A stretch of 64,000 bases of DNA, from positions 62,001 through 126,000 of the forward strand of contig NZ_SSXC01000003.1 of the NCBI RefSeq assembly GCF_021699055.1. The letters run 5' to 3'. Source of the stretch: Blastococcus sp. MG754426. Its GTDB lineage: Bacteria; Actinomycetota; Actinomycetes; Mycobacteriales; Geodermatophilaceae. This document shows, piece by piece, positions 4,841 to 38,302 of this stretch. Position numbers and translations under genes: made by a program. Numbering within the stretch: the stretch's first letter is position 1; every line of letters starts with the position of its first letter. The notes beneath the pieces were generated by a model that saw only the letters and a program-made list of their open reading frames with translations, was not told the origin of the DNA and did not search any database.

Positions 4841-6054
4841 TGAGGAGCCGCACAGCAGGTACGGAGTCCGAGGAGACGCTGCCGGTCGTGGTGATCGGGG
4901 CCGGGCCGACCGGTCTGGCCACCGCGGCCGGCCTCGGCCGCCGCGGGGTGCCGGCCGTCGTCCTCGAGCAGGGGGACGGCGTCGGCGCCGCGTGGCGCGG
5001 GCGCTACCGGGGGCTCCGGCTGAACAGCGGCCGTACCTTCTCCGGGTTACCGGGGATGCGCATGCCCCGCCAGGCCGGCACGTTCCCGGGCCGGGACGAC
5101 GTGATCGCCTACCTCGAGGCGTACTCCGCCGCGGCCGGGATCGACGTCCGCACGGGCGTCCGCGTGCGGCGGGTGACCCACGATCGCGGCCAGTGGCGGG
5201 TCGTCACCGACCACGGGGACCGGCGCACCGGCGAGGTCGTCGTCGCCACCGGGCTGCTGTCCCGCGGGTGCGTGCCCTCGGAGTGGGGCGCGGAACGATC
5301 CTCGATCCGCGCTCTGCACTCCACCGGCTACGGGGACCCGGCCCCGTTCACGGGATGCGATGTGCTCGTGGCGGGGGCCGGCTCGTCGGGGCTGGAGATC
5401 GCGCACGACCTGGCGCGCGGTGGCGCCCGCAGCGTCTGGCTGTCGGTGCGGAGGCCCCCGAACATCCTGCCCCGCGCCGTGGCCGGGATGCCCGGCGACC
5501 CGGCGGTGCACCTGCTGCGCCGGCTGCCACCACGGGTGGCCGATGCGGCCGTGCGGCCGCTGCAGCGGCGCACCATCGGCGACCTCACCGACGTCGGCCT
5601 GCCCGCACCGGACGAGGGGCCGTTCACCCGCCAGCGCCGGCCGCTCGACGCCGGGCCGGCCATCGTCGACCGCGAGGTCGTGGACGACCTGCGGGCCGGC
5701 CGGATCCGGGTGGTGGCGGCGGTCGAACGGCTGAGCCGCGACCGCGTGCACCTGGCCGACGGCAGCAGCCTGCGGGTGGACGCGGTGATCGCTGCCACGG
5801 GCCTGCGCCCCGGGCTCGAGCCGCTGGTGGGCGACCTCGACGTGCTGGACGGCGACGGTCTCCCGGTGGCCCAGGACGAGCAGCCCGCGCTGCCGGGTCT
5901 CCGGTTCGTCAACTTCGGGATGCGGCCCGGGCTGCTCGTCGCCGCCGGTCAGCGCGCCCGCCGCACGGCGATCGCGATCAGCCGTGAGTACCGGGAGAGG
6001 GACGACGAGGCGGAGCGCCCCCGGTGGCTCGCTCGCCGCCCCGGAACGGTGTGA
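4840..6054 (+). CDS. FAD/NAD(P)-dependent monooxygenase-like flavoprotein (CzcO/FMO type)
   Basis: A 404-residue two-dinucleotide-domain flavoprotein. VVVIGAGPTGLATAAGLGRR near residue 16 is the FAD Rossmann motif. The segment VGAAWRGRYRGLRLNSGRT matches the G-x-W-x-x-R-Y motif of flavin monooxygenases of the CzcO group. A second Rossmann motif VLVAGAGSSGLEIAHDLA binds NADPH, and VIAATGLRPGLEPL is the ATG-type hinge. It lacks a clear FxGxxxHxxxW fingerprint. It is coupled by a one-base overlap to the hydrolase upstream. Likely oxygenates or oxidises a small molecule made in this cluster. Confidence 0.85.
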   Translation: MRSRTAGTESEETLPVVVIGAGPTGLATAAGLGRRGVPAVVLEQGDGVGAAWRGRYRGLRLNSGRTFSGLPGMRMPRQAGTFPGRDDVIAYLEAYSAAAGIDVRTGVRVRRVTHDRGQWRVVTDHGDRRTGEVVVATGLLSRGCVPSEWGAERSSIRALHSTGYGDPAPFTGCDVLVAGAGSSGLEIAHDLARGGARSVWLSVRRPPNILPRAVAGMPGDPAVHLLRRLPPRVADAAVRPLQRRTIGDLTDVGLPAPDEGPFTRQRRPLDAGPAIVDREVVDDLRAGRIRVVAAVERLSRDRVHLADGSSLRVDAVIAATGLRPGLEPLVGDLDVLDGDGLPVAQDEQPALPGLRFVNFGMRPGLLVAAGQRARRTAIAISREYRERDDEAERPRWLARRPGTV

Positions 6055-6373
6055 GGCGGCACCCCGGTGACGGCTCCGAGGGGGCTGCCGTTCGACGGCC
6101 CTGCGCTCGTCGAGGCCCGGACGGGCCCCTGGTTTGCAGCGGGCCGGTGCGCCTCCGTCGGGGTCCGCCCAGTCGCCCGGGTGCTGGCGGTCTCGCCAGC
6201 GGGATGAACGACGCCCATGCACAGCACGTTCTCGCGGGTCATGCGACGGAGGCTCTCCGCTCCGGGACCGGCCGGCCACCCGCCCGACGGCGGATGGGGT
6301 GTTCGCCCGATGTGCTCGAGCACGGGTCGGGGCGACGCTGGGTCCTGTCAGGCATCACGGACGAGGAGGAGCC
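6055..6373 (+). other. Non-coding stretch between monooxygenase-like gene and hydrolase gene
   Basis: No convincing gene is seen in these 319 bases. A small hairpin with a 7-bp stem and 4-base loop lies at 6183-6200. GAGGAGGAG at 6363-6371 is the ribosome binding site of the hydrolase that follows. A promoter for the next gene probably lies here, but no clear hexamers were found. Confidence 0.5.
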
Positions 6374-7177
6374 ATGACCACGCGGACCACGCCCGGGGCG
6401 ATCGCACGGAGCACGAGGTCCCGGGACGGGACCGCCATCGCCTGGTGGACGAGCGGAACCGGGCCCGACCTGCTGCTGGTGCACGGCACCACCGCCGACC
6501 ACACCCGGTGGGAGGTGATGACGCCGCTGCTCGAGCCGCACGTGACCGTGCACGCGATGGACCATCGCGGCCGTGGCGGCAGCGGCGACGCGCCGGACTA
6601 CTCGCTGGCGGCCGAGGCGGACGACGTCGCCGCGGTCGTGGACGCGATCGGCGGGCCGGTCGACGTCTTCGGCCACTCGCAAGGAGCCCTGTGCACGCTG
6701 GAGGCGTCGCTGCGGACCTCGGGCATGCGGCGGATGGTGCTCTACGAGCCGCCGATCGAGGTGGCCGCGCCCCCGGAGGTCCGCCGGCGCGTGGCTGAGC
6801 TGGTGGCGCGGGGCCGCCGGGACGAGGCCGTGGGGGTCTTCCTGCGCGAGGTCGCCGGACTCACCGATGACCAGCTGGCCCGGGCGCGGACGTTGCCCTC
6901 GTGGGCGGCGCGGGTCGCGGCGGCGCACACGGCGGTGCGCGAGGAGGAGGTGTCGGCCGCCTACCGGTTCGACCCCGCCCGGTTCGCGCGTTCCGCCGTC
7001 CCCACGCTGCTGCTGGACGGGACGGAGAGCCCGCCGGACCTGCGTGAGGGCACGGCGCGGGTGGCTGCGGCGCTGCCCGGCGCCCGAGTCACCCGGCTGG
7101 AGGGCCACGGGCACGTGGCGATGCTCACCGATCCCGAGCTGGTGGTCCGGGAGGTCCTCGCCTTCCTGGCCGGGTGA
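6374..7177 (+). CDS. Alpha/beta hydrolase
   Basis: A 267-residue alpha/beta hydrolase. LLLVHGTTADHTRWEVM gives the oxyanion-hole HG, MDHRGRGGSGD is typical of the strand-4 loop, and VFGHSQGALCTLEA contains the nucleophile Ser in G-H-S-Q-G. PTLLLDGTESP holds the probable acid and GHGHVAMLTDPE the catalytic His. ATG 6374 has an excellent GAGGAGGAG ribosome binding site. It shares little with the hydrolase at 3992 outside the fold motifs. It ends the + strand accessory cluster and converges on the HD-GYP/LuxR gene. Confidence 0.88.
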   Translation: MTTRTTPGAIARSTRSRDGTAIAWWTSGTGPDLLLVHGTTADHTRWEVMTPLLEPHVTVHAMDHRGRGGSGDAPDYSLAAEADDVAAVVDAIGGPVDVFGHSQGALCTLEASLRTSGMRRMVLYEPPIEVAAPPEVRRRVAELVARGRRDEAVGVFLREVAGLTDDQLARARTLPSWAARVAAAHTAVREEEVSAAYRFDPARFARSAVPTLLLDGTESPPDLREGTARVAAALPGARVTRLEGHGHVAMLTDPELVVREVLAFLAG

Positions 7178-35625: not shown

Positions 35626-35853
35626 GTGCCCACGTGGGAATACGCCTCGGTCATCACCGCCAACGATGCGGAGTCGCAGCGGGCCGGCGTGAGCGTCAAG
35701 CTCCCCGGCGGTCAGCTCGAGCGCCAGCAGGGCGACACCAGCTCGGTGCTCAACAAGCTCGGTGCCGAGGGGTGGGAGCTGGTCAGCTACCACTCCAGCG
35801 GCGCCGGCACCTGGGGGTTCGAGCAGTTCTGGCTCAAGCGCCAGTCGTCCTGA
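35626..35853 (+). CDS. DUF4177-like small protein
   Basis: A 75-residue protein. TWEYASVITANDAESQ at the start and SVLNKLGAEGWELVSYHSSG further on are the two DUF4177 blocks: an N-terminal W-E-Y strand and the L-N-x-x-G-x-E-G-W-E-L-V motif. FEQFWLKR ends the fold. The function is unknown. GTG 35626 is supported by the -10 hexamer. It lies just upstream of an SOS box but is not its likely target. Confidence 0.8.
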   Translation: MPTWEYASVITANDAESQRAGVSVKLPGGQLERQQGDTSSVLNKLGAEGWELVSYHSSGAGTWGFEQFWLKRQSS

Positions 35854-35870: not shown

Positions 35871-35886
35871 TCGAACACCTGTTCGA
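35871..35886 (+). promoter_or_regulatory. LexA-binding SOS box
   Basis: TCGAACACCTGTTCGA is a perfect match to the actinobacterial LexA operator TCGAAC-N4-GTTCGA. It ends 21 bases before GTG 35908 and 9 bases before the -10-like CAGAAT (35896-35901). LexA bound here would cover the -35 region. No other such box was seen in the window. Confidence 0.85.
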
Positions 35887-35907
35887 CCCGTGCGGCAGAA
35901 TGGTGCG

Positions 35908-36276
35908 GTGGAGACGTCGCTGCCGCCGGGCTGGCCGGAGGAGGTGCGCCCGCCGGGCGCCCCTGACTGGGAGCGCACCGCCGTCGCCTGGCTGTTCGAC
36001 CTGGTGCCGCCGGACTACCGCGCGCACGAGGTGCTCCGCCGGTACCCCGTGCTGCTCGCCCGGTTCGCCGGCGACCACGTCGCCGCCGGTCTGGAGGCCG
36101 CCCGCGCCGGGTGGCGCACCCTGCGGGTGGAGCTGGCCGACCAGCTCCCGCCGGAGGCGATCGAGGCGGCGATGGCCGCCTACGAGCGCGAGGGGGCCCG
36201 GCTGGCCGCCGCCGCCCGCGGGGTCGACGTCGTCGGCGGGGCGTTGAGGGGAGAACGCTGGGTACCGCGGCTGTGA
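35908..36276 (+). CDS. SOS-controlled protein of unknown function
   Basis: A 122-residue cytoplasmic protein. VETSLPPGWPEEVRPPGAPD, WERTAVAWLFDLVPPDYRAH, EVLRRYPVLLARFAGDHVAA and a helical C-terminus ending RGERWVPRL have the look of a conserved family, but I cannot name it. No catalytic motif, signal peptide or membrane helix is seen. CAGAAT 6 bases upstream suggests a leaderless mRNA. The perfect LexA box directly upstream makes DNA-damage induction very likely. It may act in repair, damage tolerance or division arrest, which is inference only. Confidence 0.85.
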   Translation: METSLPPGWPEEVRPPGAPDWERTAVAWLFDLVPPDYRAHEVLRRYPVLLARFAGDHVAAGLEAARAGWRTLRVELADQLPPEAIEAAMAAYEREGARLAAAARGVDVVGGALRGERWVPRL

Positions 36277-36324: not shown

Positions 36325-36330
36325 TACAGT
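36325..36330 (+). promoter_or_regulatory. Candidate dxs -10 hexamer
   Basis: TACAGT lies about 53 bases upstream of GTG 36383, implying a leader of about 45 bases that contains GAGAGGACA. No clear -35 was identified. Confidence 0.4.
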
Positions 36331-36382: not shown

Positions 36383-38302
36383 GTGCCGCTCCTGCGATCG
36401 CTGCGGGGCCCGGAAGACGTCAGGGCCCTCGAGTCCGAAGCGCTGCCCGCCCTCGCCGCGGAGATCCGTGACGCCCTGGTCACCAGCGTCGCCCGCACCG
36501 GGGGTCACCTCGGGCCGAACCTGGGCTGCGTCGAGCTGACCATCGCCCTCCACCGGGTGTTCGACTCCCCGCGCGAGCCGATCGTCTTCGACACCGGCCA
36601 CCAGTCCTACGTGCACAAGATGCTCACCGGCCGGGTCGACGGCTTCGAGCGGCTGCGCCAGCGCGGGGGGCTGTCGGGCTACCCCAGCCGTGCCGAGAGC
36701 GACCACGACTGGGTGGAGAACAGCCACGCCTCGACCTCGCTGTCCTACGCCGACGGGCTGGCCAAGGCCTTCGCCATCCGGGGTGACTCCCGCCCCGTGG
36801 TCGCCGTCATCGGTGACGGTGCGCTGACCGGCGGCATGGCGTGGGAGGCGCTCAACAACATCGCCGCCGCCCAGGACCGCCCGGTCGTCATCGTCGTCAA
36901 CGACAACGGCCGCTCCTACTCGCCGACGATCGGCGGTGTCGCCGACGCACTGGCCACCCTGCGGCTGCGCCCCGGCTACGAGAACGCGCTGCTGCAGGTG
37001 CGCCAGGCGCTGCACCGGGCGCCCGTCGTCGGCTCGGCCCTGTACGACGCGCTGCACGCCATCAAGAAGGGCCTCAAGGACGTCCTCTCGCCGCAGGGCA
37101 TGTTCGAGGACCTCGGCCTGAAGTACGTCGGCCCGGTCGACGGCCACGACATCCGGGCGGTGGAGTCGGCGCTGCGCCGGGCCCGCTCCTTCGGCGGGCC
37201 GGTCATCGTGCACGCCGTCACCACCAAGGGATTCGGCTACCCGCCGGCCGAGACCGACCAGATCGACGCGTGGCACGCGACCGGGGTCTTCGACCCCGAC
37301 AGCGGCGCCAGCGCCCGCAAGACCGGCCTGGCCTGGACCGATGCCTTCGCCGACGAGCTGGTGCGCGTGGGCGCCGAGCGCCCCGACGTCGTCGCGATCA
37401 CCGCGGCGATGCTGCACCCCACCGGCCTGGCCCCGTTCGCCGAGCGCTTCCCCGAGCGCACCTTCGACGTCGGCATCGCCGAGCAGCACGCCCTCACGTC
37501 GGCCGCCGGCCTGGCCATGGCGGGGCTGCACCCGGTCGTCGCCGTCTACTCGACGTTCCTCAACCGGGCGTTCGACCAGCTGCTCATGGACGTCGCCCTG
37601 CACCGGCAGCCGGTGACGGTGGTGCTCGACCGCGCCGGGGTCACCGGTGACGACGGTGCCTCGCACAACGGCATGTGGGACATGTCGATCCTGTCGGTGG
37701 TGCCCGGCCTCGCCCTGGCGGCGCCGCGCGACGAGGCCACGCTGCGGGAGGCGCTGCGCGAGGCGGTCGACATCACCGACGGACCGTCGGTCGTGCGGTT
37801 CCCGAAGGGCTCGCTGCCGCCGGACATCCCGGCCGTCGAGCGGCGGGGGCCGGTGGACGTGCTGCGCCGCGGGGCTCGGGCGGAGGTCCTGCTCGTCGCC
37901 GTGGGGTCGATGGTCCCGATGTGCCAGGCCGTCGCCGAGCGGGCCGCCGACCACGGCATCGAGGTGACCGTCGTCGACCCGCGCTGGGTGCTGCCGGTCT
38001 CCGCCGAGCTGGTCGAGCTCGCCGCCGGGCACCGGCTGGTCGTCACGGTCGAGGACGGCGGGCGCGCCGGGGGAGTGGGCACCACGCTCAGCCAGGCGCT
38101 GCAGGACCGCGACGTCGACGTCCCCGTGCGCACCCTCGGCCTGCCGCAGCAGTTCTTCGAGCACGGCAGCCGCGGGCAGGTGCTCGCCGACGCAGGGCTG
38201 ACCGAGCAGGACGTCGCCCGGCGGATCGCCGAGTGGACCGCCCGGCTGACCGAGCGCGCCGGGGACGGCGTCACCGAGGCCGCCGTCGAGGACCGGGCGT
38301 GA
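36383..38302 (+). CDS. dxs: 1-deoxy-D-xylulose-5-phosphate synthase
   Basis: A 639-residue thiamine-diphosphate enzyme. [19 protein letters not shown] and [16 protein letters not shown] begin the fold, and [17 protein letters not shown] to VNDN is the ThDP-binding motif. [33 protein letters not shown] (catalytic Glu) and [17 protein letters not shown] are DXS-specific. It condenses pyruvate with glyceraldehyde 3-phosphate, the first step of the MEP isoprenoid pathway. GTG 36383 begins the conserved [16 protein letters not shown]. Its stop overlaps the next start (GTGA). Confidence 0.97.

Follow-up and report, generated by a model that had tools for sequence, protein, structure and literature searches.

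SulA, YneA, SidA and the mycobacterial ChiZ are inhibitors of cell division that belong to the SOS response, and RecX and DinI are small LexA-controlled modulators of the SOS response and of RecA that act by binding. In E. coli, translesion synthesis and checkpoint functions are typical of the SOS genes that have tight operators and are induced late. In S. venezuelae, LexA binding was mapped by ChIP-seq, which gave the consensus tCGAAC-N4-GNNCGa (PMC9380542). According to the authors, Streptomyces has no clear homologues of known SOS regulators of division, and the mechanism had yet to be found (PMC9380542). Here, we describe a gene preceded by a predicted LexA operator in the window, that is, in the whole stretch of 64,000 nucleotides of Blastococcus sp. 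MG754426 DNA that was analysed. This organism belongs to the Geodermatophilaceae, a family associated with desiccation and radiation.

The gene, designated X, is located at 35908-36276 on the plus strand and codes for an uncharacterised protein of 122 residues that starts with GTG at 35908-35910. The predicted LexA operator (SOS box), TCGAACACCTGTTCGA, lies at 35871-35886, or at -37 to -22 relative to this GTG. The 16-mer has no mismatch to the SOS operator and contains 12/12 of the half-site bases. When the entire window was searched with up to three mismatches, four matches were found against 0.32 expected from dinucleotide-shuffled sequence under the same settings, two of the four being the TCGAACACCTGTTCGA site read on both strands. 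The first-pass annotation of this DNA had claimed a perfect LexA box with a CAGAAT -10 element and the GTG start just past it. All of this was confirmed, with the -10 element at 35896-35901 on the plus strand. Relatives have a similar hexamer (CAGACT, CACACT or CAGAAT) at the same place, and the conserved CAnnnT stands at -12, so that the box overlaps the promoter. A generic strict sigma-70 scan found no consensus promoter at X, and for this reason the assignment of the -10 element rests on its conservation in relatives. There are 6 nt between CAGAAT and GTG; therefore, the transcript of X is probably leaderless, with its start point on the start codon. A further in-frame GTG is present upstream, at 35890. 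The GTG at 35908 has a counterpart in the same position in the majority of relatives from three genera of the family, namely the window's own genus (g1), the Geodermatophilus-type genus (g3) and the Modestobacter-type genus (g9). Here and below, g codes stand for genera of the window's family and f codes for other families.

The exact pattern TCGAACN4GTTCGA was found at three sites in the 4.71 Mb assembly, and the box of X is one of them. The second site precedes, by 12 bp, a frame that carries domains of DinB-type polymerases, and the third one precedes a frame with a DUF6504 domain, after which comes a PHP-domain frame, most likely DnaE2. Sites with one mismatch were found in the region that separates lexA from a divergent LysM gene (three), before recA (one), before ruvC (one) and at DUF222 genes (two); five others that we read all fall inside longer frames. 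Since the motif is present at the lexA, recA, ruvC, DinB-type and DnaE2-like loci, we take it as the LexA operator of this organism, and X thus carries one of the best operator copies in the genome. The operator of X belongs to the same exact-palindrome class as those of the DUF6504/DnaE2-like and DinB-type loci; unlike these, X lies on another contig and has no match to polymerase-related domains. The locus also resembles the S. venezuelae LexA/SOS regulon (PMC9380542) in that its operator fits the consensus and is near the start codon, and in that the kinds of genes sharing the motif in this genome (lexA, recA, ruvC, DinB-type and DnaE2-like) are alike. The earlier reading of the box as an operator that controls X gained support from the occurrence of the motif at lexA and recA and from the retention of the box in several lineages, and we consider it very likely that X is regulated by LexA.

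The protein encoded by X was compared with several libraries. The X of the window had no family in Pfam at E ≤ 10 and no match in NCBIfam; in PHROGs it hit one family without an assigned function, at E 0.75. A set of 17 diverse members of the X family gave nothing usable against Pfam, NCBIfam and PADLOC, and the best profile match in the PDB had an E value of 0.011 in one search and 0.2 in another. It was stated earlier that X has no recognisable enzymatic motif, and the searches of Pfam, NCBIfam, PHROGs, PADLOC and the PDB, none of which explains the protein, support the absence of a recognisable domain. The weak library matches of the 17 members (best E 0.0033, in one or two members each) were taken as chance. 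The same applies to the match of 1 of the 17 members to an NCBIfam RecX model, at E 0.022. A SulA, LysM or related domain was found neither in the X of the window nor among the weak matches of the 17 members. The residues invariant in these diverse members (W9, P10, P16, L29, P34, L50, V109 and A112) look structural. We noticed no conserved catalytic set, and the X of the window has no cysteine; since no such set was seen, action by protein binding is favoured. The GRAVY values of seven members ranged from -0.11 to -0.44, and a hydrophobic-periodicity test for helices had a mixed outcome and is given no weight.

Compared with the SOS cell-division inhibitors, X is likewise small, has a LexA box and lacks an enzyme motif. 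In contrast to them, it has no LysM or other Pfam domain and shows the GRAVY values given above, and a LysM gene is already present in the genome, oriented divergently to lexA and separated from it by a stretch that holds boxes. X is similar to RecX and DinI in its small size, its LexA box and the proposed binding to proteins, and differs from both in having no Pfam match.

X was detected in 110 of the 112 genomes of the Geodermatophilaceae. In the two genomes without a match, the assembly is split into about 610 (G060) and 530 (G097) contigs. All 110 orthologues comprise 122 residues between the aligned start and the stop. The mean nucleotide identity to the X of the window, calculated for 109 orthologues, was 0.92 at the first, 0.95 at the second and 0.65 at the third codon position, which indicates that selection acts on the protein. 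Profile searches were made in samples of the order, the class and the phylum, each of which contains the window's own genome and its relatives; X was found in 98 of 397, 155 of 393 and 22 of 396 genomes, respectively. The 22 genomes from the phylum sample are all members of the class Actinomycetes, and within the searches made the family of X is so far seen only in this class. Among the best 80 of 169, the named relatives come from Blastococcus, Geodermatophilus, Modestobacter, Klenkia and Goekera; further named ones come from Nonomuraea, Embleya and Streptomyces. Phages gave no match to X, and in the IMG/VR viral contigs 40 stretches fit a pattern, of which 0 were confirmed as X. Our literature searches brought up no paper that we recognised as dealing with protein X. 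As far as these searches show, X would be a member of the SOS regulon of actinobacteria that has so far gone unreported, conserved lineage by lineage and clearly lost from the regulon in some relatives.

Boxes at other X genes were scored as the number of half-site bases out of 12 within -120 to +10 from the start, and a score of at least 11/12 was counted as a box. Within the family, we read the DNA upstream of X in all 110 genomes that have the gene; two were cut by contig ends, and 108 were counted. The box was present in 72/108 (47 with 12/12 and 25 with 11/12) and absent in the other 36. By genus, it was found in 23/23 genomes of g1, 24/25 of g3, 16/21 of g9 and 5/5 of g10-g12, as well as in 4/16 of the Blastococcus-type genus g2. 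It was found in 0/9 of g4-g7 and in 0/9 of g8, a genus that includes Klenkia and one record labelled Modestobacter. The footprint of the site was examined in 53 rows from g1, g3, g10, g11 and g12, genera chosen since the box is common there, with rows unfiltered and with columns of more than half gaps dropped. Every column of the two half-sites reached an identity of 90% or more, the N4 spacer was 40-79% identical, and most flanking columns were variable. Constant arms with a free spacer are expected of a site bound by a LexA dimer. The 16 boxed genomes of g9, together with a few of g1 and g2, have a box of the type TCGAACACACGTGCGA, positioned at -58 from the start of X and thus shifted upstream by 21 bp, or about two turns of the helix, compared with most g1 genomes. 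The variant TCGAACNNNNGTGCGA was noted at g9 loci (L032, L036, L044 and others), where the -10 element is unchanged. The Modestobacter-type box TCGAACACACGTGCGA fits the S. venezuelae consensus (PMC9380542).

Outside the family, 88 of the 153 matching genomes of the class were read: the 28 best-scoring ones with loci and 60 picked by hand. The picking was done by family and not by row, and it was weighted to f28 and f36 once boxes had been seen there. The pooled value of 45/88 with a box of at least 11/12 is inflated by this weighting and does not represent a frequency in the class; among the 28 best-scoring loci, 8 were boxed. The box was found in 24/28 genomes of f28 (28 of 37 matches read), the other four reaching 10/12, and in 16/18 of f36 (all 18 read), the other two again at 10/12. 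It was also present in 4/6 of f42 and 1/2 of f50, both read completely. We identified f28 as probably Streptosporangiaceae because the box of Nonomuraea gerenzanensis is the same as that in an f28 genome. No box was seen in the Streptomyces-like family f30 (0/7, with 7 of 27 matches read), in the remaining 15 families of the class taken together (0/27) or in other families of the order (0/19). Judged by likeness to a protein of S. chartreusis, f30 is probably Streptomyces, and the lack of a box in the seven homologues read there is a point of difference from the S. venezuelae regulon. The retention of the box upstream of homologues is thus mixed: the box is kept in 72/108 of the family and in members of f28, f36, f42 and f50, and it is absent from the homologues read in the rest of the order, in f30 and in the 15 remaining families of the class.

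These data were weighed against other explanations of the locus. Other palindrome-binding regulators exist, and the palindrome at X could be read by one of them or could be a product of chance. We regard this as very improbable, since control windows of 130 bp taken elsewhere in the same loci reached 11/12 in 1 of 2065 cases, and since 40 hand-picked genomes, both boxed and boxless, together contain 216 copies of the exact palindrome and 3 of the reversed pattern. The recurrence of this type of motif at lexA and recA in the window's own genome also argues against it. The real client of the operator might instead be dxs (36383-38302, plus strand, GTG start; TIGR00204, E 1.4e-188, over the cut-off), which follows X closely on the same strand and could be reached by read-through from the promoter of X. 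However, TACAGT, which lies at 36325-36330 on the plus strand of the window and occurs in 78 of the 110 family loci at a distance of up to 135 nt past the end of X, is a likely promoter element of dxs itself. In addition, dxs was absent within about 4-5 kb on either side of X in all six f28 loci, which come from boxed or near-boxed genera, and near the boxed f36 locus L326, one of two f36 loci at that length. Tblastn with the Dxs of the window detected the gene in 7 of 20 class neighbourhoods of 8-9 kb each (two of f42 and one each of f36, f48, f50, f43 and f34). As f28 keeps the box with no dxs nearby, X and not dxs is most probably the client, and read-through to dxs has very little probability. 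On the other side of the box, a small DUF4177-like ORF (35626-35853, plus strand, 75 codons and a stop; PF13783 with a score of 25.1 bits at a cut-off of 25) is oriented toward the box and stops 17 bp before it; it gave no tblastn match at 1e-10 beside X in 22 loci of other families. We conclude that X is the only plausible client of the operator. A different explanation, in which X is the antitoxin or the regulator of a toxin-antitoxin-like module under SOS control, comes from a plasmid of Embleya sp. NBC_00896 (NZ_CP108778.1). There, a single frame at 5842-6609 of locus L315 joins a diverged X domain to a tail that resembles NikA, although the latter match (E 3e-4) does not reach the cut-off. 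The fusion has an 11/12 LexA box, TAGAACTCGTGTTCGA, at -39, and the gene after it is annotated as a Fic-family toxin. This annotated Fic gene had no Pfam match in our scan, the case is a single one, and no toxin was recognised by eye in the other neighbourhoods, which makes such a module improbable.

The main rival accepts that X is truly controlled by LexA and treats it as a protein of general cell physiology that drifts in and out of the SOS regulon, with a function that is not specific to damage. It is in line with the many families that have X without a box and with the history of the site: at least 19 changes of box state were counted on the tree of 119 X proteins (122 columns; 47 of 116 inner branches with support below 80%), where boxed families lie apart and boxless ones between them. 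It also agrees with the presence near X of dxs in the 7 neighbourhoods mentioned above and of both acnA-like and dxs genes in 4 of the 20, which fits a housekeeping neighbourhood; repair genes beside X were recognised by eye in none of the 20. On the other hand, boxes occur in five families and in every genome of the window's genus, and near-perfect palindromes at different offsets would hardly arise from drift alone. A general physiological role outside damage tolerance is therefore a possibility to be taken seriously, though we think it rather unlikely. The first-pass annotation had stated that its reading would be refuted if near relatives had X but had lost the box, and such loss does occur, in all of g8 and in most of g2. 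In five g8 genomes, the exact palindrome was present 5-8 times per genome compared with 0-1 for the reversed pattern. As the palindromes persist elsewhere in g8, the LexA site seems to be unchanged there and X seems to have left the regulon, so that the loss looks like regulon turnover rather than a refutation. In three f30 genomes, the exact palindrome was present only 0-1 times. Either X joined the regulon several times, or its membership is ancestral with frequent loss.

The reading that we prefer is that X is repressed by LexA as a member of the SOS regulon and serves damage tolerance or a checkpoint. LexA bound at 35871-35886 would cover the -35 region of the leaderless promoter of X. RecA on damaged DNA would trigger self-cleavage of LexA, upon which the promoter would open and X would be made. 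The operator is near-ideal and belongs to the class also seen at the DinB-type and DnaE2-like loci; it would be expected to give tight repression and late induction at a high dose of damage. The other exact operators in this genome belong to translesion-type loci. X, a small and soluble-looking protein, would act by binding another protein, as an adaptor or inhibitor at the replisome or translesion polymerases, at RecA or at the division machinery. The binding of LexA, the induction of X, its lateness and its kind of action are all points that we infer from the features described above. For the specific role in damage tolerance or at a checkpoint, the arguments are about evenly balanced; for LexA repression and such a role by protein binding in combination, we lean slightly in favour on the sequence evidence. 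X is probably an overlooked protein of the DNA-damage response. More tentatively, and with doubt prevailing, X might found an unnamed family of late SOS effectors, controlled by LexA in at least five families and acting as protein-binding factors in checkpoint or translesion control.

If this last reading is true, X could fill, for part of the phylum, the gap between DNA damage and cell division that is named by the S. venezuelae authors (PMC9380542). As the Streptomyces-like homologues read here have no box, X may answer the division question for other lineages and not for Streptomyces. A core gene of its family, with one of three exact operators in the genome and with boxes in four further families, makes a concrete and cheap target in the search for a new SOS effector.

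Two minor observations concern other LexA boxes. In the lexA/LysM-gene intergenic region (G000:C79:33633-33727, L009-L011), there are three boxes, two of them one base apart, and exact box pairs with the same spacing also occur in the genomes G025, G026, G027 and G030. DUF222-type genes adjoin LexA boxes at three loci of the window's own genome (L004, L007 and L002), as do the SOS-induced 13E12 genes of mycobacteria.
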